This document shows, one piece after another, positions 5,896 through 51,572 of a stretch of 64,000 bases of DNA (positions are counted from its first letter, which is position 1; each line of letters starts with the position of its first letter). Both the position numbers and the translations under genes were made by a program. The notes beneath the pieces are model-generated. The model was not told the origin of the DNA. It saw nothing but the letters and a program-made list of their open reading frames with translations, and made no database searches. The stretch covers positions 1 to 64,000 of the forward strand of contig NZ_LGIU01000098.1 of NCBI RefSeq assembly GCF_001187915.1. Reading direction: 5' to 3'. This DNA is from Arthrobacter sp. RIT-PI-e. Lineage in GTDB: Bacteria > Actinomycetota > Actinomycetes > Actinomycetales > Micrococcaceae.

Positions 5896-6165
5896 GGAGC
5901 TCAGCACTGCTCCAAAGGATCTTTCTCCGTCGATGTCAGGCAGGACATCTCGGATATATAACGATTTTCCCGATGCTTGATGATTGCTTGTGTGATGGAT
6001 AAGTTGTCTTCGCCTACATATTGTCGATGGTGACATCGGCCGGGTGCTACAGAGTCTGTATCAGCTCGATCCAGCCACAAGGCGAACCATACGCATCTCG
6101 CCGCTCCTGCCGGCACCATGCCACGGCTCCACCCATCGGTCGGATCCTTCTCAAAGGTTCAACCC
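5896..6165 (+). promoter_or_regulatory. Intergenic region upstream of chvE with an AT-richer patch
   Basis: This 270-bp stretch separates copA from the sugar-importer operon. Between about 5930 and 6030 the composition drops well below the surrounding GC, including TATATAACGATTTT near 5954. It most likely holds the promoter and regulator sites of chvE-mmsA-mmsB, but I see no operator convincing enough to name. No strong terminator for copA was found. Confidence 0.4.
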
Positions 6166-42508: not shown

Positions 42509-43816
42509 ATGAGCGAGCATTCCGGGGCCTCCGCGGCTCCGCCTCCCGAGGAGGAGCAGGACACCTCACCCCCCGAGGAGACCCGGCTGCGCGTCCGCCG
42601 CGGCGCCATGATCTCCGCCCTGCAGCCCACCACCGCCGTGGTGGGAAGGCTGCTGGTCCTCGCGGTCGCCGTGCTCGGACTGCTCTACCTGCTGTCCACC
42701 CTCTGGGTGATCGTCCTCCCGCTGCTCCTGGCCCTCCTCCTGGCCTCCGTCCTGTGGCCGCTCAACGGACTGCTCAGGAAGATCATGCCGAAAGCGCTGG
42801 CGGCCGCGCTCTCCGTCCTCGGCCTGCTCGGGACCATCGGTGCCGTGGGGTGGTTCACCATCTCGGTGTCCGTCGAGGGAGTGCGCGACCTCTCCGAGAG
42901 CGCCGTCGAGAACATCCAGAGCATCGGCGAGTTCGCGGCGTCCCTGGACGTGCCGTTCGAACTCCCCGACGTGGACCAGATCCTGACCAGCGCACTCACC
43001 TGGTTGCAGGATCATTCCGGGCAGATCCTGGCGGGGGTCACCTCGGGCATCGGCACCCTGGGATCCGTCTCCATCACCGCCCTCCTGGCGCTCGTCCTCA
43101 CCTTCTTCTGCCTCAAGGACGGGGACCGGTTCTCGGGCTGGCTGCTGCGCTGGACCACGGGCACCGTGTTCGTGCACACCGGTGAGGTGGCTGCACGGTC
43201 CTGGAGGACCCTCTCCGCCTACATCCTGGCGCAGGCGGCCGTCGCGATGGTGGACGCCGTCTTCATCGGTCTCGGCCTGTGGATCCTCGGCGTCCCCCTG
43301 GCCCTGCCCCTCGCGGTCCTGATCTTCTTCGCCGGCTTCCTGCCGATCATCGGAGCCGTGGGCACCGGGATCCTCGCGACCCTCGTGGCCCTGCTGGCCA
43401 ACGGGTGGGTGACCGCCCTGATCGCGCTGGGCCTCGTGCTGCTGGTCCAGCAGCTGGAGAGCAACGTGCTGCAGCCGAGCCTCGGGGGGAAGTCGCTCAA
43501 GCACCATCCCGCCGTGGCGCTGCCCGCCGTCCCCGCCGGCGGGACGATCTTCGGGCTCATCGGGGCGTTCCTGGCCCCCCCGATCATCGCCGTGGGGATG
43601 GTGGCGTTCCAGTACGGCCGCGAGCGGCTGCCCGAGCCCCCCCCGCCCGGGACCTCGCCCGCGCCGGCGGCCGAGCCGGTCCCGCCGGGCACGCCGGCCC
43701 CGGACGACGTCGCGGCGGGGGAGCCGCCCCCGGCCTCCCGGGCACCCGCGGGCGGCCGCCAGCCGGCCGGCCGTCATGGGCGAGCGCCGGGCCTCCGCGT
43801 CAGGGATCGGTGGTGA
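42509..43816 (+). CDS. AI-2E family transporter (TqsA/PerM-like)
   Basis: About 435 residues with eight hydrophobic helices. The family core is clear: LLALLLASVLWPLNGLLRK, ITALLALVLTFFCLKDGDRF, LIFFAGFLPIIGAVGTGILATLVALL, LLVQQLESNVLQPSLGGKSL and a final GLIGAFLAPP. Members export small molecules (autoinducer-2 in a few cases) or act as Na+/H+ antiporters; the substrate here is unknown. GAGGAG lies upstream of ATG 42509. Pro/Ala-rich tails flank both ends, and the 3' end overlaps the convergent CDGSH gene by 17 nt. Confidence 0.9.
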   Translation: MSEHSGASAAPPPEEEQDTSPPEETRLRVRRGAMISALQPTTAVVGRLLVLAVAVLGLLYLLSTLWVIVLPLLLALLLASVLWPLNGLLRKIMPKALAAALSVLGLLGTIGAVGWFTISVSVEGVRDLSESAVENIQSIGEFAASLDVPFELPDVDQILTSALTWLQDHSGQILAGVTSGIGTLGSVSITALLALVLTFFCLKDGDRFSGWLLRWTTGTVFVHTGEVAARSWRTLSAYILAQAAVAMVDAVFIGLGLWILGVPLALPLAVLIFFAGFLPIIGAVGTGILATLVALLANGWVTALIALGLVLLVQQLESNVLQPSLGGKSLKHHPAVALPAVPAGGTIFGLIGAFLAPPIIAVGMVAFQYGRERLPEPPPPGTSPAPAAEPVPPGTPAPDDVAAGEPPPASRAPAGGRQPAGRHGRAPGLRVRDRW

Positions 43817-44087
43817 AGCCGATCAGTTTGTGCGAACCGTCGCAGTAGGGCTTCAGGACCGAGGCTCCGCACCGGCCCAGCGCCACGGTACGGCGGGTGC
43901 GCGGCAGCTCCTGGCCGTCCGTGCCCACCAGCTCGAAGTCCCCGCGGACGAGGAGCGGGCCGTTCGCGCAGGCCACCACGGAGACGGGCGTGGCCGATCC
44001 GGAGTTGAGGCTCCGCTGCGGGACGTCCGCGCCATCCCGTTCACCGCCCTGGGTATGGTCGGCGCCGGACGCGTGCTCGGCGCTCAT
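43800..44087 (-). CDS. CDGSH iron-sulfur-type protein lacking the first Cys ligand
   Basis: 95 residues. The C-terminal CDGSH zinc-finger-like domain normally binds 2Fe-2S through Cys-x-Cys-x2-Ser-x3-Pro-x-Cys-Asp-x2-His. Here it reads GRCGASVLKPYCDGSH, so Cys73, Cys82 and His86 remain but the first Cys is Gly71 (codon GGC instead of TGC). The start overlaps the diiron-type enzyme gene by 4 nt (ATGA), so they are co-translated and probably share electrons or iron. A cluster could be lost, altered or use another ligand. Confidence 0.85.
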   Translation of the reverse strand: MSAEHASGADHTQGGERDGADVPQRSLNSGSATPVSVVACANGPLLVRGDFELVGTDGQELPRTRRTVALGRCGASVLKPYCDGSHKLIGFTTDP

Positions 44088-45118
44088 GCGGCCACTGCTC
44101 CCACGTGGTGCAGCGACGAACGGCCCGCCTCCCACGCCTCCAGGATGTGCTGCGTCATCAGGACGTCGAGAGCGATGCCCGCCGCGGCCCCGAACAGGAC
44201 GTCGGGCAGTAGCCGGGGGTCCTGCTCCACCAGCCCGCCGGCCATGTCCCGGCCCGCGATCTGCTCGTGCACGGCATCGGCCTCGACGTGCTCGTCGAAG
44301 TACTCCCTCGCCTCCTCGCCGTGGCCATGGCGCTTGAAGCCTCGCGAGTGCAGGCGGTTCGGCTGTGACGACGTCATCTCGTATGCCGCCAGGTGACCCA
44401 CGATCGCACCCCGGAGACGGCGGTTCAGGCCGAAGAGGGACATCAGGTTGTTGGAGGCCAGCGTGATGGCGGGAACCGCGTCCAGGTACGCACCGTAGGT
44501 GTCGTCCATGCCGAGATCCCGCATGGTGCGTGCGAAGAGGGCGGAGTGCATGCGTGTCGGGAGCCCGTTGCCGTACTCGTCCGCCTGGATCTCCACCAGG
44601 GCGGCCTTCGCCCGTCCCGTCAGCCGGGGGATCGCCCATGTGTGGGGATCGGCCTCCTTGAGCTGGTAGATCGACTTGTGCACCAGGAACTCCCGCAACT
44701 GGTCCTCCGTGGCGGACCGCGCCACGAACCGGGACATGCTGGGGCCCGCATCCTCGCCGGTCATCCGGAACAGCTCCGCGCAGACCGCCTCGCTGGAGGA
44801 GTCCGGCAGGTCGCCGAGGACGACGCGGCTCCGTACGGCCTGCTCGAACGCCCCCTCGATCAGGCGGCGGATCCCGAGGAGCCCCGGGTGCCACTCCCAG
44901 TCGTCACCGGCGTCGTCGATCCCGCTGTAGTGCAGTTCGTACAGGCAGAAGAGCGCGAGCTGCAGGTCGTCGTCCCGCAGGATGTCCGGCGTCCCGGAGA
45001 CCCGCTCCGCGACGAGCGTGCCGAGCTGCACGAGCGACTCCTCCTGGGTGGGCGCGGGTGCGGCGATCGTCGCCAGCACGAGGGCGCTGATCTCCCCGCG
45101 GGGGGTCGGCTGTTTCAT
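44084..45118 (-). CDS. Iron-containing redox enzyme family protein (heme-oxygenase-like diiron fold)
   Basis: 344 residues, all helical. Candidate metal ligands appear as ELHYSG, ADEYGNGLPTRMHS and FDEHVEADAVHEQI (Glu/His sets on successive helices), the pattern of heme-oxygenase-like diiron oxidases. The reaction is unknown. ATG 45118 has AAGAGG upstream. Its partner CDGSH gene overlaps by 4 nt. A TAAG-N4-CTTG site lies 49 nt upstream of the start, placing it in the proposed stress regulon of 45-51 kb. Confidence 0.85.
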   Translation of the reverse strand: MKQPTPRGEISALVLATIAAPAPTQEESLVQLGTLVAERVSGTPDILRDDDLQLALFCLYELHYSGIDDAGDDWEWHPGLLGIRRLIEGAFEQAVRSRVVLGDLPDSSSEAVCAELFRMTGEDAGPSMSRFVARSATEDQLREFLVHKSIYQLKEADPHTWAIPRLTGRAKAALVEIQADEYGNGLPTRMHSALFARTMRDLGMDDTYGAYLDAVPAITLASNNLMSLFGLNRRLRGAIVGHLAAYEMTSSQPNRLHSRGFKRHGHGEEAREYFDEHVEADAVHEQIAGRDMAGGLVEQDPRLLPDVLFGAAAGIALDVLMTQHILEAWEAGRSSLHHVGAVAA

Positions 45119-45166: not shown

Positions 45167-45178
45167 TAAGCCTACTTG
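45167..45178. promoter_or_regulatory. TAAG-N4-CTTA motif, site A (one mismatch)
   Basis: TAAGCCTACTTG, 49 nt upstream of the diiron-type enzyme start at 45118 (minus strand). One base differs from TAAG-N4-CTTA. One of six related sites in the 45-51 kb region. Confidence 0.45.
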
Positions 45179-45341
45179 TGGTCGGTGACACTCGGACGGC
45201 GGGGTGGTGCCGGACGCAGGACGACGCCGGACCGACGGCCACCCCAGGTGCCGCCGATCCGACGTCGTCCTCCTCCTCAGGCGCTGTGCGCGCCGGTCCG
45301 TGCAGTCCGTTCCCGCACGGGTCGCGGAACCCCCGGCCGTG

Positions 45342-45803
45342 TCAGACCCGGCTCGCCGTGCTCCTGGCACTGCGGCCGAGGATCACGCCGAGGCCGATCA
45401 TGCCCACGGCCAGGACGAAGTGCAGCCAGTTGTCGGCGTTGTTCAGCGGCACGAAGTTCGCGGCGGAGTCCTGCCCGATGACCAGGCCGTAGATCCAGAG
45501 CACCGCGTAGATGACCCCACCACCGATGAGGTAGGTACGGGCACCGGAGATGGTGCGTGCCATCGCCAGACCGGCGACGCCGAAGAGTAGGTGCACGATG
45601 TTGTGGAGGATCGAGACCTGGAAGATCCCGAGCAGCAGGGCCTCGGACTGGTGCCCGGCGAACATCATGGTGTCGTAGTCCGAGGTGATGCCCGGGATGA
45701 AGCCGAGGATCCCCACCAGCAGGAACACCACGCCCACTGCCTGGGCGGTGCGCTGCAGGGTCGTCCTGCCGCTGTCAACGGTGCGGTTGTTCGCGTTCGT
45801 CAT
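45342..45803 (-). CDS. DUF4383 membrane protein
   Basis: 153 residues with four transmembrane helices: AVGVVFLLVGILGFIPG, LLLGIFQVSILHNIVHLLFG, LIGGGVIYAVLWIYGLVIG and a last helix near 125-143. DUF4383 proteins have the same motif HNIVHLLFGVAGL after helix 2; their role is unknown, though they are often stress-associated in actinobacteria. AAGGAAG precedes ATG 45803. It lies 31 nt downstream of the manganese catalase gene on the same strand and is probably part of that transcription unit. Confidence 0.9.
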   Translation of the reverse strand: MTNANNRTVDSGRTTLQRTAQAVGVVFLLVGILGFIPGITSDYDTMMFAGHQSEALLLGIFQVSILHNIVHLLFGVAGLAMARTISGARTYLIGGGVIYAVLWIYGLVIGQDSAANFVPLNNADNWLHFVLAVGMIGLGVILGRSARSTASRV

Positions 45804-45834
45804 TTGTTCTTCCTTTTTCTTCGTCTGAGACCGG

Positions 45835-46716
45835 TTATTCGCGGTTGAGCTTATCCTGCACCGTTCCCGCGATCTTCTCCAGGGTGTTGGGCAGTTCGGT
45901 GGTGCCGTAGAAACGGGAGTCCACGTGGGTGGGCGGGGGCATCGGCGCACTCGTGGTGGGGCCCTCGTGGTACGAGAACTCGCCATTGCCGTCCGGGGTG
46001 GGGCCGGAGGCCCAGCTGCCCTCGGACGCCGCCTTGCCGTCCGAGAAGTTCAGGTACTGGTAGGAGACCTCGGTGGCCTCCTTCTTCTGGGGGAAGTTGC
46101 TGGGTACGGGCAGCAGCTCCATCTTCGACTCCTGTAGTTCCCTGGCGGCGGCGATCCACTGGTTCTGGTGCATCGTGTCTCGTGCCAGGAGGAAGGAGAG
46201 CATGTCCCGGACGCCGTGGTCGTCGGTCATGTGGTAGAGCCGGGCCACCTGCAGCCGCCCTTGCATCTCCGCGTTGGCATTCGCGGTGAAGTCGGCGAGC
46301 AGGTTCCCGCTCGCCGTGATGTAGCTGCCCTGCCAGGGGTTGCCCATGCTGTCCACGGCGCGCGCACCGGCGCCGGCCACGATCGCCTGCTGCATGTCCG
46401 TCCCGCCCACCACGGCCGCGATCGCGGGGTCCGACTGCACGGCGTCGTCGGTGATCCCGAGCGGTGCCTTCTCGAGCAGCTGGGCGATCATGGTGGCCAG
46501 CATCTCGACGTGGCCCATCTCCTCGGCGGCGATCCCGAAGAGCAGGTCCCGGTACTTGCCCGGGATGTGCGTGTTCCACGCCTGGAAGTTGTACTGCAGC
46601 GCGACGGTGATCTCGCCGTACTGACCACCGAGCACCTCCTGCAGCTTGCGCGCGTAGACGGCGTCCGGCTTGGCCGGAGTGGCCTTGTACTGGAGTTCCT
46701 GCTTGTGGAAAAACAC
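45835..46716 (-). CDS. Manganese catalase
   Basis: 293 residues from GTG 46716, chosen because a perfect GGAGGAG lies 6 nt upstream and because the protein then begins VFFHKQELQY like known enzymes. With this numbering the dimanganese ligands fall at Glu35, Glu66, His69, Glu150 and His183, nearly the same numbers as the Lactobacillus enzyme. It dismutates hydrogen peroxide without heme. TAAG-N4-CTTA site B lies 117 nt upstream. A frame-open extension to 46797 exists but lacks a good start. DUF4383 follows. Confidence 0.95.
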   Translation of the reverse strand: MFFHKQELQYKATPAKPDAVYARKLQEVLGGQYGEITVALQYNFQAWNTHIPGKYRDLLFGIAAEEMGHVEMLATMIAQLLEKAPLGITDDAVQSDPAIAAVVGGTDMQQAIVAGAGARAVDSMGNPWQGSYITASGNLLADFTANANAEMQGRLQVARLYHMTDDHGVRDMLSFLLARDTMHQNQWIAAARELQESKMELLPVPSNFPQKKEATEVSYQYLNFSDGKAASEGSWASGPTPDGNGEFSYHEGPTTSAPMPPPTHVDSRFYGTTELPNTLEKIAGTVQDKLNRE

Positions 46717-46832
46717 GTGTATCTCCTCCCGCATCCGGTTCTCCCACGCATGGATCCACTTCTTATGGAAGTGGTCACGGGAGATCCTCGTCGACACGAC
46801 GCTAACGCCGCGACGATGATTCCGGAAGGTAC

Positions 46833-46844
46833 TAAGGGTACTTA
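46833..46844. promoter_or_regulatory. TAAG-N4-CTTA motif, site B (exact)
   Basis: TAAGGGTACTTA, an exact match, in the 291-bp divergent region between the catalase (minus) and the 47008 operon (plus). Confidence 0.6.
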
Positions 46845-46886
46845 TCCTCGACTTGCGAATTCGTCGGAAAACCTTGCAGGAGTGAT

Positions 46887-46902
46887 GCTAAGCATGCTTA
46901 GC
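46887..46902. promoter_or_regulatory. TAAG-N4-CTTA motif, site C (perfect 16-bp palindrome)
   Basis: GCTAAGCATGCTTAGC is a perfect 16-bp palindrome containing TAAG-CATG-CTTA. It lies about 106 nt upstream of the 47008 operon and 170 nt from the catalase start. It is the strongest operator candidate of the six sites. Confidence 0.7.
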
Positions 46903-46910
46903 TTGCACGA

Positions 46911-46930
46911 CATGTCCAGTACGGGACATG
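46911..46930. promoter_or_regulatory. Inverted repeat CATGTCC-N6-GGACATG
   Basis: CATGTCC (46911-46917) and GGACATG (46924-46930) form a second 7-bp inverted repeat just downstream of site C and 78 nt before the 47008 gene. It may be another regulator site or a short hairpin in the leader. Confidence 0.45.
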
Positions 46931-47007
46931 GATCGCACCATCGGACCGAAGCGGTGAGTACACGATGGCGCATCCATGGAACGGCAGAATCAACGTGAGG
47001 AACACTG

Positions 47008-47850
47008 ATGACTACGCAGAACTGGCCGCAAGACCCCCTGGTGCCGTCCACCACCGGGAACGAGGCCTCGACCTCGGACCTCGGGACCACCGAACTCGGC
47101 ACCTCCGACTCCACCAGGTCCACCTCCGATGCCAAGGCCTCGGCCGCCAAGGACTCCGCGAAGCAGGTGGGCGAGGACGGCAAGGAGGCCGCGAAGAACG
47201 TCGCGGGTACAGCGGCGAGTGAGGCCAAGAGCGTGGCAGCGGAAGCGAGCTCGCAGGCCAAGGACCTCTTCAGCACGGTCAGCTCCGAGGTCAGGACGCA
47301 GGCCGGGTCCCAGCAGCATAAGGTCACGGAGGGCCTCCGCGGCATCTCCGACGAACTGAGGTCGATGGCGGAGAAGTCCGACAACGGCATGGTCTCGAGC
47401 CTCGTCCAGCAGGCCTCCGAGCGCGGGCACAGTGCCGCGAGCTGGTTGGACGGTCGGGATGCCTCCGAGGTGCTCGAGGACGTCAAGGCGTTCGCCCGTC
47501 GCAAGCCGGGCACGTTCCTGGCCCTCGCGGCAGGTGCCGGTCTCGTGGTCGGCCGCCTCACCCGCAGTGCCGCCGCCAACCGCAGCTCGGACAGCCACAG
47601 CTCCTCCGATGCATCGGCCCGACACGACGCACTCCCTGCGGGAAACCCGACCTCCACCCCCACCGGGTACACGGAGGTGGACGCCGACGCCTACAGCGGC
47701 ACGCCCGCCACGGTCGACCTGGGTGGCACGACCGACACCCAGACCGGGTCCAACCCCGCCCTGATCGATCCCGCGGACGACTACCCCACGATCCCGCCGG
47801 GCACGCCTCCGGTAGGCACCCGCCCGGATGACGGAGGACTGCGCCGATGA
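47008..47850 (+). CDS. Alanine/serine-rich helical membrane-associated protein
   Basis: 280 residues. A long hydrophilic, Ala/Lys/Ser-rich coiled region (about 40-150; DAKASAAKDSAKQ, AASEAKSVAAEASSQAKD) recalls LEA-like or apolipoprotein-type amphipathic helices. A single hydrophobic segment PGTFLALAAGAGLVVGRL follows, then a Ser/Thr/Pro-rich tail. It is the first gene of an overlapping three-gene operon and is preceded by TAAG-N4-CTTA sites. It probably associates with membranes under stress; function inferred only from composition. Confidence 0.75.
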   Translation: MTTQNWPQDPLVPSTTGNEASTSDLGTTELGTSDSTRSTSDAKASAAKDSAKQVGEDGKEAAKNVAGTAASEAKSVAAEASSQAKDLFSTVSSEVRTQAGSQQHKVTEGLRGISDELRSMAEKSDNGMVSSLVQQASERGHSAASWLDGRDASEVLEDVKAFARRKPGTFLALAAGAGLVVGRLTRSAAANRSSDSHSSSDASARHDALPAGNPTSTPTGYTEVDADAYSGTPATVDLGGTTDTQTGSNPALIDPADDYPTIPPGTPPVGTRPDDGGLRR

Positions 47851-48299
47851 GCCAGCCCTACACCGGGGGCGCGCACCAGGCGTCGGTCCCGCCTCCCTCC
47901 GAAGCACATGAACGAGCCGATTCCCAGAGTATCGGGGAGCTCATGGGGGACCTCACCGCCAACTTCTCCAAGCTGATGCGGCAGGAGGTGGCGCTGGCGA
48001 AGGCCGAGGCCACCGAGTCGGCGAAGCAGGCCGGGAAGGGTGCAGGCATGTTCGCCGGCGCCGCGGTCGGCGGGCACTTCGTGCTCCTGTTCCTCTCCCT
48101 CGGCCTCATGTGGGGCCTGGCGGCGGTCATGCCCACCGGATGGGCCGCGGTAATCGTGGCCGTCGTCTGGGGCATCATCGCCGCAGTACTGGCACTCCTC
48201 GGCAAGAAGGAGATGCAGCAGGTCAAGGGGCTCCCGAACACCGCGGAGACCGTCAAAGAGATTCCGCCGACACTGAAACCAGGTGAGCACACACGATGA
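47847..48299 (+). CDS. Phage holin family (superfamily III-like) membrane protein
   Basis: 150 residues. A soluble N-terminus is followed by an amphipathic segment LTANFSKLMRQEVALAKAEA, typical of the actinobacterial holin-III/DUF1469 group, then two hydrophobic helices (about 70-90 and 98-117). In actinobacterial chromosomes such genes sit in envelope-stress operons and are not markers of prophage. It overlaps the previous gene by 4 nt and the following DUF3618 gene by 4 nt. Confidence 0.88.
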   Translation: MSQPYTGGAHQASVPPPSEAHERADSQSIGELMGDLTANFSKLMRQEVALAKAEATESAKQAGKGAGMFAGAAVGGHFVLLFLSLGLMWGLAAVMPTGWAAVIVAVVWGIIAAVLALLGKKEMQQVKGLPNTAETVKEIPPTLKPGEHTR

Positions 48300-48958
48300 G
48301 CCAGACACCAGAAGAAATTCGTGCAGATATCGAGCGCACACGCCGTGAACTCAGCTCCGATGTCGACGCCGTCGCCGACAAGGTCAACCCGGCGAACATC
48401 GCACACCGCCAGACCGAGAAGGTCAAGCACAGCTTCAGCAACGTGAAGGAGACCGTCATGGGCAAGGCCGAGGACGTCAAGGACTCAGTACTGGGGAAGA
48501 CGGACGACGTGAAGGACTCCCTCCATTCCAGGGCCGGGAGCGGCATGGACTCGGCGCAGTCCGCCACCGGGGCAGCTCGTGACCGGGTGAACCAGGCGCA
48601 GCACGCGGTGCACGACGCCCCGGGCAAGGTCTCGAGCAGGACGGCGGGCAACCCCCTCGCCGCCGGTCTGATCGCCTTCGGCGCCGGCCTCCTCGTTGCA
48701 TCCCTGATCCCGGCCAGCCAGAAGGAGCAGCAGGCCACGGCCCAGCTCAAGGAGCAGGCCGCGCCGTTGACGGAGGCCGTGACCGACGCCGCGAAGAACG
48801 TGGTCGAGGAAGTCCGCGAACCGGCGCAGCAGGCGGTGCAGGCGGTCAAGGAGAGCGCGACCGACTCGGTGAACACCGTCAAGGACGAGGGACAGCAGGC
48901 CGCCAGTGACGTGAAGGGCAGCGCGCAGGACGCGAAGTCGAACGTCCAGCACAGCTGA
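48296..48958 (+). CDS. DUF3618 domain protein
   Basis: 220 residues. The N-terminal DUF3618 motif TPEEIRADIERTRRELSSDV is followed by a helical, charged middle, a hydrophobic segment near 118-135 (LIAFGAGLLVASLIPAS) and a long Ala/Lys/Gln coiled tail. DUF3618 proteins accompany holin-III genes in actinobacteria; function is unknown. ATG overlaps the holin-like gene by 4 nt. A 14-bp stem terminator follows within 12 nt. Confidence 0.9.
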   Translation: MSQTPEEIRADIERTRRELSSDVDAVADKVNPANIAHRQTEKVKHSFSNVKETVMGKAEDVKDSVLGKTDDVKDSLHSRAGSGMDSAQSATGAARDRVNQAQHAVHDAPGKVSSRTAGNPLAAGLIAFGAGLLVASLIPASQKEQQATAQLKEQAAPLTEAVTDAAKNVVEEVREPAQQAVQAVKESATDSVNTVKDEGQQAASDVKGSAQDAKSNVQHS

Positions 48959-48970
48959 CCCGTTCGGCAC

Positions 48971-49002
48971 GACAGGCCGCCGGAGCAGTCCGGCGGCCTG
49001 TC
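48971..49002. terminator. Terminator after DUF3618 operon
   Basis: GACAGGCCGCCGGA (48971-48984) pairs perfectly with TCCGGCGGCCTGTC (48989-49002) around the loop GCAG. It closes the 47008 operon and could also face the convergent isochorismatase gene. Confidence 0.85.
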
Positions 49003-49085
49003 GCCGTGTCCGGCCCCACCCGGCACGGAGGCGCTGCACGGGATGGCACGGGTCCGGCGGCACTAACGGCCGGGTCGACCGCCCG

Positions 49086-49700
49086 TCAGCCCGGTGTTCC
49101 TGCCGATCGGCCCAGTGCGGCCTCGGCCTCTACCTGGGAGAGGATCGGCTGGCGGTACTCCGCCGAGAGCATCTCTAGCATCGCCGCTGCGTACTTCGTG
49201 TTCGTGCTCCCGATCGCACTGCGGGCATAGGCCGCCCGGAGATCCGACGCGAAAGCGTCCGCGCCCGTGTGGGCCACACAGTTGTGGGTGGAGACGCCGG
49301 CGAGGACCACCCGGTCCACACCGAGGTCCCGGAGCCGTTCGGCGAGTCCGGTGCCGAAGAACGCACTGTCACGCGTCTTGAGCACGCGCTCCTCCCCCTC
49401 CACCTCCAGGCCGTCGACGATCCGGGCCTGGTCGGTTCCGCCGAAGATGAAGCCCTGGTCGTCGTCCCGCATGGAGACGGTCCAGGTGGAGCGATCCGGC
49501 ATGTGCTCCGTACCGATCACCAGGACGGGAGCGCCACCGGCCCGGGCAGCACGGACCAGCGCGTTGCAGGCCACCACGAGCTCCTGCCGGGCCGCTGCGA
49601 GCATCTGGTCCTCGAAGAAGGCGTTCTGCATGTCGATGACCAGCAGCGCCGTCCTCCCCTCCGCACCCTCGAAGGTGGCGTGGGCCTGGGACTGTGACAT
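49086..49700 (-). CDS. Isochorismatase-like cysteine hydrolase
   Basis: 204 residues. The family triad is present as Asp23 (LLVIDMQNAFF), Lys108 (RVLKTRDSAFFGT) and Cys141 (GVSTHNCVAHT), with the cis-peptide VS before the Cys loop. Such enzymes include nicotinamidase-, isochorismatase- and amide-hydrolase-like members; the substrate is not predictable. The start is ATG 49700 with GGAG 4 nt upstream. TAAG-N4-CTTA sites D and E lie about 145 and 168 nt upstream in the divergent region to the PRC-barrel gene. Confidence 0.88.
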   Translation of the reverse strand: MSQSQAHATFEGAEGRTALLVIDMQNAFFEDQMLAAARQELVVACNALVRAARAGGAPVLVIGTEHMPDRSTWTVSMRDDDQGFIFGGTDQARIVDGLEVEGEERVLKTRDSAFFGTGLAERLRDLGVDRVVLAGVSTHNCVAHTGADAFASDLRAAYARSAIGSTNTKYAAAMLEMLSAEYRQPILSQVEAEAALGRSAGTPG

Positions 49701-49844
49701 GGGACTCCGATCGGACGGTGCCGGCCGAGTTTTCCAGTCGGGAGGGCGGCTCGGTGGCCTGGGATCGCCGCGGGACCGCGGATCCGCACACCCTGCTTCG
49801 ACGCTCTCACGCCGGCCGCCGGGGGACAATCCGCACTGAGACGG

Positions 49845-49856
49845 TAAGCCTGCTTC
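49845..49856. promoter_or_regulatory. TAAG-N4-CTTA motif, site D (one mismatch)
   Basis: TAAGCCTGCTTC in the divergent region between the isochorismatase-like and PRC-barrel genes, 12 nt from site E. Confidence 0.45.
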
Positions 49857-49867
49857 CCATCTGGTAC

Positions 49868-49879
49868 TAAGTGTGCTTA
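49868..49879. promoter_or_regulatory. TAAG-N4-CTTA motif, site E (exact)
   Basis: TAAGTGTGCTTA, exact, about 94 nt upstream of the PRC-barrel gene. With site D it forms a pair 23 bp apart (centre to centre), close to two helical turns. Confidence 0.6.
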
Positions 49880-49972
49880 CTCTAGGGGTCGGTGGTTCGT
49901 CCGGTATCCGGATGGGACCAACAACCGAGAATTCCATACCCTCGACGTGAGAGTACTCAGAAGGAGAAGGAA

Positions 49973-50893
49973 ATGATCACCCAGGAGAACATCGACACCC
50001 TGCTCGGCAACGGCGGCAACGTCCTCGGCACCGACGGCGAGAAGATCGGTTCGATCGGCCAGGTCTACCTCGACGACCAGACCGGCGAGCCGAGCTGGGT
50101 CACCGCCAAGACCGGCCTGTTCGGTACCTCGGAGTCCTTCGTACCCCTGCAGGGTGCGGACGTCGAGGGCGACGACGTACGCGTCCCCTACACCAAGCAG
50201 CACGTGAAGGACGCACCGCGCATCGAGTCCGACGGCAACCTCAGCCCCGAGGAGGAGGACCGCCTGTACAGCCACTACGAGATCGGTGGCGGCACCAGCG
50301 GCTACACCGAGACCACCACGGGCACCACCGGGACCGCCGGTTACGACACCACCACGACGACGGGGACCACCACCGGGACCGTCGGCCAGGGTGAGCGCGA
50401 CGTCGACCTCGACGCCGCAGCCGCGGGTCGCACCACTGCCGGGGTGGACTCCTCCACGGACACCAGCCGCCACACCGTGGGCCACGACACCTCCGGTCCC
50501 ACCACGGACGATGCCATGACCCGCTCCGAGGAGCAGCTCCGCGTCGGCACCGAGAAGCGCGAGGCGGGCCGTGCGCGCATGCGCAAGTACGTGACCACCG
50601 AGAACGTCACCAAGACGGTTCCCGTCAGCCACGAGGAGGTCCGGGTGGAGCGCGAGCCCATCACCGACGCCAACCGCGGCGACGCCTACGACGGCCCCGC
50701 GATCAGCGAGGAGGAGCACGAGGTGACCCTCACCGAGGAGCGCCCCGTGGTCGAGAAGGAAGCCGTCGCGGTCGAGCGCGTCCGCCTCGACAAGGAGACG
50801 GTCACCGACCAGGAGACGGTCAGCGCGGATGTGCGCAAGGAAGAGATCGAGGTCGAGGGCGTGGACGACACGCGCCGAGGCACGAACTCCTAG
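49973..50893 (+). CDS. PRC-barrel and DUF2382 domain protein
   Basis: 306 residues. An N-terminal PRC-barrel (VLGTDGEKIGSIGQVYLDD, EPSWVTAKTGLFG) precedes a Gly/Thr-rich linker with repeated TTTGT and a C-terminal DUF2382 domain (EEQLRVGTEKREAGRARMRKYV as part of it, VPVSHEEVRVEREPI, EEEHEVTLTEERPVVEKEAV). These proteins are stress-induced in several bacteria; the exact role is unknown. AAGGAGAAGGAA precedes ATG 49973. Sites D and E lie upstream; an 18-bp stem terminator follows. Confidence 0.92.
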   Translation: MITQENIDTLLGNGGNVLGTDGEKIGSIGQVYLDDQTGEPSWVTAKTGLFGTSESFVPLQGADVEGDDVRVPYTKQHVKDAPRIESDGNLSPEEEDRLYSHYEIGGGTSGYTETTTGTTGTAGYDTTTTTGTTTGTVGQGERDVDLDAAAAGRTTAGVDSSTDTSRHTVGHDTSGPTTDDAMTRSEEQLRVGTEKREAGRARMRKYVTTENVTKTVPVSHEEVRVEREPITDANRGDAYDGPAISEEEHEVTLTEERPVVEKEAVAVERVRLDKETVTDQETVSADVRKEEIEVEGVDDTRRGTNS

Positions 50894-50901
50894 AGCATCA
50901 C

Positions 50902-50940
50902 CGACGGCGGGCCCGGAAGCTACTTCCGGGCCCGCCGTCG
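50902..50940. terminator. Terminator after PRC-barrel gene
   Basis: CGACGGCGGGCCCGGAAG (50902-50919) and CTTCCGGGCCCGCCGTCG (50923-50940) form a perfect 18-bp stem with loop CTA. Confidence 0.88.
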
Positions 50941-51049
50941 TCGTTCGTGGACGGAACTCCTGGCAGCCCGGCAGGAGGCACCTCACCCCTCCGTCCGCGA
51001 CCTGCTACTCCTCGAAGTCAACTTCTTGCCCACCGTGCAGGAAAGATGC

Positions 51050-51061
51050 TAAGCAAGCTGT
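51050..51061. promoter_or_regulatory. TAAG-N4-CTTA motif, site F (weak, two mismatches)
   Basis: TAAGCAAGCTGT within GCTAAGCAAGCTG, about 89 nt before marR. The left half is perfect but the right half differs in two bases; its placement before the regulator gene suggests autoregulation. Confidence 0.35.
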
Positions 51062-51149: not shown

Positions 51150-51572
51150 GTGCCGGAGTTGAACGATTGGTCGACCAGCCGCCTGCTGACCACGGCCGCA
51201 CGGATCGTGGAGCACTCATGGAACGAGAAACTCCTGGGCATCGGCATCACCCATGCAGGTCTCACCACCCTCGGTGTGCTCGAACGCGAGGGGACCCTGA
51301 CCGGCGTCCGGTTGGCGCAGCTGGTCCATGTGCAGGCCCAGACCGTCGGACGCACGCTGGACCGCCTCGAGAAGCGTGGTCTGGTGACCCGGCTGCGCAA
51401 CACGGCGGACCGACGGAGCCAGCGGATCACCATCACCTCGGCCGGGCAGAAGGCGCTCGAGCGGGCCAAGAACATCGAGAACGAGCTGATGGCCGAGGAG
51501 GGCCTGGCGTCCGAGGACCTGCGGGACCGCCTGAAGACGGTCATCAACGAGCTGGGCCCCAAGAAGGACTAG
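51150..51572 (+). CDS. MarR-family transcriptional regulator
   Basis: 140 residues. The winged helix-turn-helix is clear: TLTGVRLAQLVHVQAQTVGRT as recognition helix region, then LVTRLRNTADRRSQRITIT as wing (DxRS-x2 motif DRRS). MarR proteins are dimeric repressors sensing oxidants or phenolics. GTG 51150 with GGGGAAGGAA about 8 nt upstream is preferred; ATG 51120 is possible. It follows the stress block and is the only regulator in it, so it is the obvious candidate reader of the TAAG-N4-CTTA sites. It overlaps the convergent dnaB stop by 4 nt. Confidence 0.88.
   Translation: MPELNDWSTSRLLTTAARIVEHSWNEKLLGIGITHAGLTTLGVLEREGTLTGVRLAQLVHVQAQTVGRTLDRLEKRGLVTRLRNTADRRSQRITITSAGQKALERAKNIENELMAEEGLASEDLRDRLKTVINELGPKKD

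Follow-up and report, generated by a model that had tools for sequence, protein, structure and literature searches.

Repressors of the MarR family that act on palindromic operators before their own genes are well known, and one of them, SlyA, controls many genes; Arthrobacter and its relatives are noted for their survival of drying, cold and oxidants, and no described regulator of that response in Arthrobacter was found in the open-access full-text literature. We analysed 64,000 nucleotides from Arthrobacter sp. RIT-PI-e (contig NZ_LGIU01000098.1, positions 1 to 64,000; hereafter the window, meaning this whole stretch), in which a palindrome of the form TAAG-N4-CTTA recurs before stress-type genes and before a gene for a MarR-family regulator (the window MarR). 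For SlyA, the consensus first proposed was TTAGCAAGCTAA, which mutagenesis later cut to TTAN6TAA; such a site lies 22 bp upstream of slyA itself, and the protein antagonises repression by H-NS (PMC5797941). CrtR, a MarR-type regulator of Corynebacterium and other actinobacteria with orthologues studied in Pseudarthrobacter and Micrococcus, binds its own promoter and controls mmpL genes in some species (PMC7432914). PA3458 of Pseudomonas aeruginosa is a MarR repressor of an osmoadaptation operon, with a motif that has been likened to that of SlyA (PMC8070244).

The palindromes in the window are probably the operators of an autoregulated MarR-family repressor encoded at 51150-51572, and the predicted regulon extends across the genome and to other genera of the family. 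The new element is the family-wide stress regulon of MarR kind to which these comparisons point, self-operators of MarR genes being known in general; neither the regulon nor the operator was found to have been described before in the open-access full-text literature, a scope outside which most subscription papers fall, and the four papers found there to print the sequence of site 3 (Table 1) have titles on unrelated subjects. The first-pass annotation had reported exact TAAG-N4-CTTA at 46833, 46889 and 49868, and near matches at 45167 and 49845 (one change) and at 51050 (two changes). A pattern scan found all of them as described, together with the perfect 16-bp palindrome at 46887-46902 whose core is site 3 of Table 1, and all six sites were intergenic according to our own codon-usage gene caller, which was used for gene boundaries in place of the annotation. 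The same annotation had seen no comparable run elsewhere in the window, which held except for one unlisted one-mismatch site at 6000-6011 (TAAGTTGTCTTC), outside any called gene. The site at 51050 has a single mismatch to the related pattern T[AC]AGC-N2-GCT[GT]A. With up to one mismatch, TAAG-N4-CTTA occurred six times in the window, five of these clustered between 45167 and 49879, against a mean of 0.52 and a maximum of 3 in 100 shuffles. Among the 64 half-sites with one G/C, which gave a mean of 0.09 intergenic palindromes in the window, TAAG was the sole one with three exact palindromes; the G+C content of the window is 69.7% and its intergenic share about 12%.

The main evidence for this reading, as far as sequence comparison can provide it, is the conservation of site placement. 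Seventeen of 21 Arthrobacter loci returned, picked solely by their MarR protein, were scored for a site within 250 bp upstream of each gene; L150, L159, L160 and L161 were left out of the count (a mislabelled record, two small contigs and one distant match), and several of the 17 are close relatives, so that the counts are not independent. Close relatives of the source genome bear Arthrobacter names (A. agilis, A. bussei, A. cheniae and others) and belong to Micrococcaceae. A site preceded the gene corresponding to that at 47008 (the 47008-type gene) in 16/16 loci, the PRC-barrel gene in 16/17, the manganese catalase gene in 11/11, the MarR gene in 14/17 and the haem-oxygenase-like gene in 10/13, compared with 4 of 120 other genes of these loci. 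The comparison genes of the same neighbourhood gave 1/17 (dnaB), 0/17 (rplI), 0/16 each (Holin-X and DUF3618), 0/13 (DUF4383) and 1/11 (isochorismatase). Exact TAAG palindromes numbered 43 in the 17 loci, every one of them intergenic; the remaining 63 half-sites averaged 0.5. In aligned footprints of syntenic Arthrobacter blocks the sites recurred at the same promoters: the catalase and operon sites lay 55-57 bp apart in the six syntenic blocks with both, and the 23-bp spacing of the two sites before the PRC gene was retained wherever both were kept. In the stretches fetched for L084, L085 and L089, the Mn-catalase and redox-enzyme genes were missing, and in L084 and L089 the MarR gene lay 85 bp downstream of the PRC gene. 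The excluded record L150 (WNZI01000003.1) is titled Vibrio cholerae strain 35D and yet includes the dnaB-MarR-PRC block of Arthrobacter, with 75-86% identity to the window (blastn pieces); it is probably mislabelled or contaminated.

A genome-wide count by position, proposed in the first-pass annotation, gave 13 exact TAAG-N4-CTTA sites in the source genome versus four for the reversed pattern. All 13 were intergenic, with no spread into coding regions, and 12 of them lay within 170 bp upstream of a start codon; one exact site (L005), 596 bp from a resolvase-like gene, looks like chance. According to Pfam, the genes flanking exact sites code for CsbD, short-chain dehydrogenase, BrkB, DUF1508 and DUF456 proteins, among others, as well as for a transglycosylase-associated (GlsB-like) protein and a ferritin-like (Dps-type) protein with a polyketide-cyclase-type neighbour (Dps, GlsB and SRPBCC being the names that we presume for these Pfam matches), while several have no Pfam family. 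Sites with one mismatch add a second DUF2382 protein, a DUF3140 protein and an aldo/keto reductase.

The analysis was extended to the order as delimited in GTDB, which may exceed Micrococcales of NCBI in breadth; the family labelled f1 was taken as Micrococcaceae, since Arthrobacter falls within it. Exact TAAGCATGCTTA, the sequence of site 3, was present in 13 of 24 family genomes versus 5 of 273 other genomes of the order, and its reversed control in one and eight, respectively. Twenty-one of the 27 exact sites outside the genus were examined for neighbours, and 14 had, no more than 200 bp away, a gene homologous to one of the targets in the source genome: PRC/DUF2382, 47008-type, CsbD, short-chain dehydrogenase, GlsB-like and Mn catalase genes, a family of 177-aa proteins and, in one case, a MarR gene. 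The remaining seven lay by genes for a pyridoxal-dependent decarboxylase, a PNPOx-like protein and a DUF3040 protein (one each), by genes with no Pfam family (two), or had no start codon within 200 bp (two). Conservation upstream of orthologues, another check named in the first-pass annotation, was thus found both in the 17 Arthrobacter loci and in other genera. Within the family, where all MarR candidates were scored in agreement with the order-wide scoring, the exact palindrome occurred in 13 of 16 genomes with a homologue of the window MarR versus none of the eight without one (Fisher p 2.2e-4, uncorrected for relatedness).

Outside the family, MarR homologues with 35-46% identity were found in at least 28 of the 273 genomes (up to 13 candidates scored per genome), and their own promoters probably constitute the strongest test of the pairing of regulator and operator. 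In the 150 bp upstream of these 28 genes, T[AC]AGC-N2-GCT[GT]A was found exactly in 18 and with up to one mismatch in 25. The pattern was chosen after inspection of the first 20 homologues, for which shuffles gave means of 0.01 (exact) and 0.23 (up to one mismatch), and 187 other windows of those 20 loci contained none exact and three with up to one mismatch; among the eight homologues taken later, seven had it exactly, two of these seven (L265 and L267) being near-copies of earlier ones. The palindrome TCAGCATGCTGA was present in 16 of 28 hand-picked genomes of the order, at one to three copies each. Sixteen of its loci (24 sites) were read, and 10 sites fell within a called gene, in part through doubtful calls at MarR promoters and in part probably by chance. 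It precedes MMPL genes adjoining MarR genes (L254, L261) and the gene of an MFS transporter (L260); Pfam confirmed two MMPL and one MFS neighbours at these non-family loci. Since MarR genes outside the family carry operator-like self-sites, the pairing seems to predate the stress regulon, itself apparently an addition made in Micrococcaceae: in other families of the order this kind of MarR would probably be a local repressor of itself and of an adjacent transporter, and its recruitment to stress genes would have come later, in Micrococcaceae. Conserved placement and self-sites at MarR genes together support the undescribed MarR regulon suggested in the first-pass annotation.

The coordinates of regulator, probable targets and sites are collected in Table 1.

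Table 1. Operator-like sites and genes of the block in the window
Feature	Position	Strand	Remarks
Operator-like site 1	45167-45178	.	TAAGCCTACTTG; 48 bp upstream of haem-oxygenase-like gene
Operator-like site 2	46833-46844	.	TAAGGGTACTTA; Mn-catalase side
Operator-like site 3	46889-46900	.	TAAGCATGCTTA; right end overlaps -10-like TAGCTT at 46899-46904
Operator-like site 4	49845-49856	.	TAAGCCTGCTTC; overlaps -35-like TTCCCA at 49854-49859
Operator-like site 5	49868-49879	.	TAAGTGTGCTTA; 23 bp past site 4; overlaps -10-like TACTCT at 49878-49883
Operator-like site 6	51050-51061	.	TAAGCAAGCTGT; promoter of the MarR gene itself, 88 bp upstream of its start
MarR-family regulator (probable regulator)	51150-51572	+	140 aa, no cysteine; Pfam MarR 1.7e-11
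PRC-barrel / DUF2382 protein (probable target)	49973-50893	+	Pfam
First gene of probable target operon	47008-47850	+	no Pfam family at 0.001
Actinobacterial Holin-X (Phage_holin_3_6), operon gene 2	47847-48299	+	Pfam
DUF3618 protein, operon gene 3	48296-48958	+	Pfam
Manganese catalase (probable target)	45835-46716	-	Pfam; start from orthologue length (293 aa); longer open reading frame reaches 46797
DUF4383 membrane protein, perhaps co-transcribed with catalase	45342-45803	-	Pfam; own site in 0/13 loci
Haem-oxygenase-like iron-containing redox enzyme (probable target)	44084-45118	-	Pfam on longer open reading frame
CDGSH iron-sulfur protein, overlaps end of redox-enzyme gene	43800-44087	-	Pfam zf-CDGSH 2.2e-16

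Pfam searches bore out the gene identities much as they had been guessed in the first-pass annotation, and the winged-helix domain of the window MarR (PF01047) scored 44.3 bits against a curated cut-off of 24.6. The sites had been placed there beside a set of named stress genes, an assignment that stood for the redox enzyme and CDGSH unit, the Mn catalase, the holin/DUF3618 operon, the PRC gene and the MarR gene, and fell for the isochorismatase gene, which Pfam confirmed in the block. Because a site precedes 16/17 PRC genes versus 1/11 isochorismatase genes, the pair at 49845 and 49868 was assigned to the PRC gene; isochorismatase is unsupported as a target, and probably is none. The first gene of the operon, at 47008, belongs to no Pfam family, yet its homologues stand behind an operator-like site in all 16 Arthrobacter loci that have one and in another genus (L165), which makes it a candidate for a new family of stress proteins.

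The 12-bp core TAAGC-N2-GCTTA lies within a looser 20-bp palindrome, ATRS-core-SYAT, with A at 66% and T at 52% at positions -4 and -3 and their mirror positions (40 distinct sites). By eye, the PRC promoter combines a -35-like TTCCCA at site 4 and a -10-like TACTCT at site 5 with an 18-bp spacer; the 47008 promoter has TTGCAG and TAGCTT with 19 bp between them, and TAGCTT overlaps site 3; and site 6 overlaps a weak -35-like stretch of the MarR promoter. This overlap of sites with -35- and -10-like elements suggests repression by a block of RNA polymerase. A MarR dimer would bind each site via its predicted recognition helix, VQAQTVGRT; protein bound to both the probable -35 and -10 elements of the PRC promoter, or to the probable -10 element of the 47008 promoter, would exclude the polymerase. 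A signal would then release MarR, leading to joint induction of the genes for catalase, CsbD, Dps-like, short-chain dehydrogenase, PRC/DUF2382 and membrane proteins. Redox-sensing MarR proteins of the OhrR type rely on a reactive cysteine. Cysteine is absent from the window MarR and from its distinct orthologues (none in 20 distinct proteins of its clade, clade A, nor in the protein of L176, which was set apart from that clade), so that a cysteine redox switch was rejected for the window MarR, and a small ligand is the likelier signal.

MarR paralogues of the genus were also compared. The window MarR (clade A) occurs in 23 of 35 genus genomes, and by score threshold 19 of these 23 orthologues have a self-site, one (L035) a weaker one and three none. 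The 12 genomes without clade A contain clade D (seven), clade F (three) or neither (G016 and G029). Self-sites of the TAAG type were found in clades D (7/7), F (3/3) and G (4/5), in none of clades E and H, and in nearly none of clade C; L138 and L196 were set apart from clade B. Over 96 distinct paralogues, T[AC]AGC-N2-GCT[GT]A with up to one mismatch preceded 29 (shuffle mean 1.2). Nine blocks from genomes without clade A were inspected: eight have the 47008-HolinX-DUF3618 operon with exact TAAGCATGCTTA within 200 bp, and the ninth (L133) has a TAAG palindrome 0.7 kb from this operon; a MarR paralogue is at most three genes away in eight of the nine, and at about 5 kb in L127. In the source genome, 16 MarR-family matches were scored, the two others (L205 and L216) having no called gene. 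One of the scored genes, L208 (G000:C39, near 17861), has a near-palindrome, TAATAAGTACTCTTGTTA, 73 bp upstream and lies 5-7 kb from two regulon sites; TAATAAGTACTCTTGTTA is possibly a distinct operator.

Several observations weigh against the window MarR as the repressor of a stress regulon. Twelve of the 35 genus genomes lack it, of which at least eight retain an exact site before the 47008-type operon, and its self-site has been lost in L084, L085 and L089 (two A. echini strains and a near relative). The source genome has 18 MarR-family matches above the cut-off, among them a close paralogue (G000:C19), similar in its helix and devoid of a self-site, as well as L208 and L209, which carry a one-mismatch TAAG-N4-CTTA upstream. 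By the strict criterion, a self-site precedes 26 of the 96 distinct paralogues, and one of eight in clade B (none by the later pattern); in the family, G159, G173 and G322 have a MarR homologue and no exact palindrome. With the whole protein as query, OhrR (1z91) comes out on top and SlyA in sixth and tenth place, and the core, with A instead of T as its second base, misfits TTAN6TAA (PMC5797941). Promoter elements were read by eye, and the stress role of many targets is presumed. In Arthrobacter sp. Helios under polyethylene glycol (PEG) stress, CsbD, PRC and holin are absent from the main text and the Mn catalase, though present, is outside the three strain-specific genes named there as induced (PMC9608346), which gives no support and may count against induction by PEG. 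Finally, TAAGC-N2-GCTTA with up to two mismatches was rarer than its control across the source genome (199 vs 348), and CTAAG-N4-CTTAG was unenriched over the 35 genus genomes (71 vs 86 control matches). Loose forms of the motif were rejected as genome-wide predictors for this lack of enrichment; the signal resides in the specific TAAGC-N2-GCTTA core plus its positions.

Part of these observations would be explained if several MarR paralogues shared the operator, as they may, and if another of them (for instance the C-type MarR of contig 19) or several together ran the regulon, the window MarR acting mainly on itself and its neighbours. This is a possibility to be taken seriously, although we regard it as rather unlikely: most paralogues retain VQAQTxG(K/R) in the helix, sites persist before the 47008-type operon in genomes without clade A, and clades D, F and G have similar self-sites, but of the 16 proteins scored in the source genome, the window MarR is alone in having a TAAGC-N2-GCT self-site (L208 and L209 matching the looser form with one mismatch), and its gene is located within the six-site block. 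In either case, judging from the self-sites, it is very probable that the regulon is under a MarR of the family of the window MarR. That this protein is an activator or anti-silencer instead of a plain repressor, in the way SlyA counters H-NS (PMC5797941), is an unlikely option; sites 4 and 6 do lie at -35-like elements, but -10-like elements are overlapped at the PRC and 47008 promoters, and MarR repressors are described as typically acting on sites that overlap -10 or -35 (PMC7432914). We find it more improbable still that the palindrome belongs to an unrelated regulator (a response regulator, a TetR protein or a sigma factor at its promoter) with the MarR as a bystander. Binding of the MarR to the palindrome is a prediction, and the right-hand end of the palindrome looks like a -10 element; on the other hand, the symmetry extends into both flanks, which is ill-suited to a sigma-factor promoter, and the self-sites at 25 of 28 non-family MarR genes occur in genomes where TCAGCATGCTGA has three copies at most. 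Chance, or a composition effect in AT-rich intergenic DNA, has a negligible probability and was rejected, because the same promoters carry sites across the MarR-selected loci: the reversed control is also mainly intergenic in the source genome (3/4) and loose patterns are unenriched, but the excess in the window, the distribution between family and order, the contrast of targets with other genes and that of self-sites with shuffles all oppose it.

An operator shared by stress-type genes and a MarR gene may thus point to an undescribed switch that keeps a stress programme off until it is needed. Going beyond the autoregulated repressor favoured above, we tentatively propose, as a bolder and somewhat doubtful generalisation, that the general stress response of Micrococcaceae could be run by an expanding set of MarR repressors sharing a SlyA-like operator that has promoter elements embedded in it, and not by an alternative sigma factor; paralogues would swap between species while operators stay, and the system would have originated as a local transporter switch of the kind that persists in other families of the order. 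With the operator defined, a candidate repressor proposed and the targets listed, the regulation of stress survival becomes testable, and the one-base shift from TCAG to TAAG between families, together with the increase from one to three palindrome copies to a dozen sites, offers a case of a local repressor becoming a regulon.

In gene content (CsbD, Dps, catalase, short-chain dehydrogenase), the proposed regulon is similar to the general stress regulons of sigma-B and RpoS, from which it differs in that the shared signal is a symmetric operator and not a sigma-factor promoter. In desiccated Curtobacterium, CsbD, GlsB and MarR genes are induced (PMC12029717), which is suggestive only, being from a different bacterium. 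PA3458 differs from the system described here in its motif, TTTCAGTTGGAAGCA, and in its targets (PMC8070244). The 15-bp motif published for CrtR has a central TTAA and not AGC-N2-GCT (PMC7432914); the conserved self-site here is T[AC]AGC-N2-GCT[GT]A, no search having been made for a TTAA-centred motif, and the neighbourhoods of L254, L260 and L261 recall those of CrtR while their motif differs. For the winged-helix part of the window MarR, the only solved structure found at 1e-6 was SlyA/RovA (4aih), whereas the protein failed the NCBIfam equivalog test for SlyA (38.5 bits against a cut-off of 120), is nearer to OhrR over its full length, and has other predicted targets than SlyA/RovA of enterobacteria. 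As to the operator, TTAGCAAGCTAA and TAAGC-N2-GCTTA have AGC-N2-GCT in common, and site 3, TAAGCATGCTTA, matches TTAGCAAGCTAA at 9 of 12 positions with AGC-N2-GCT identical, but it misfits TTAN6TAA (PMC5797941).

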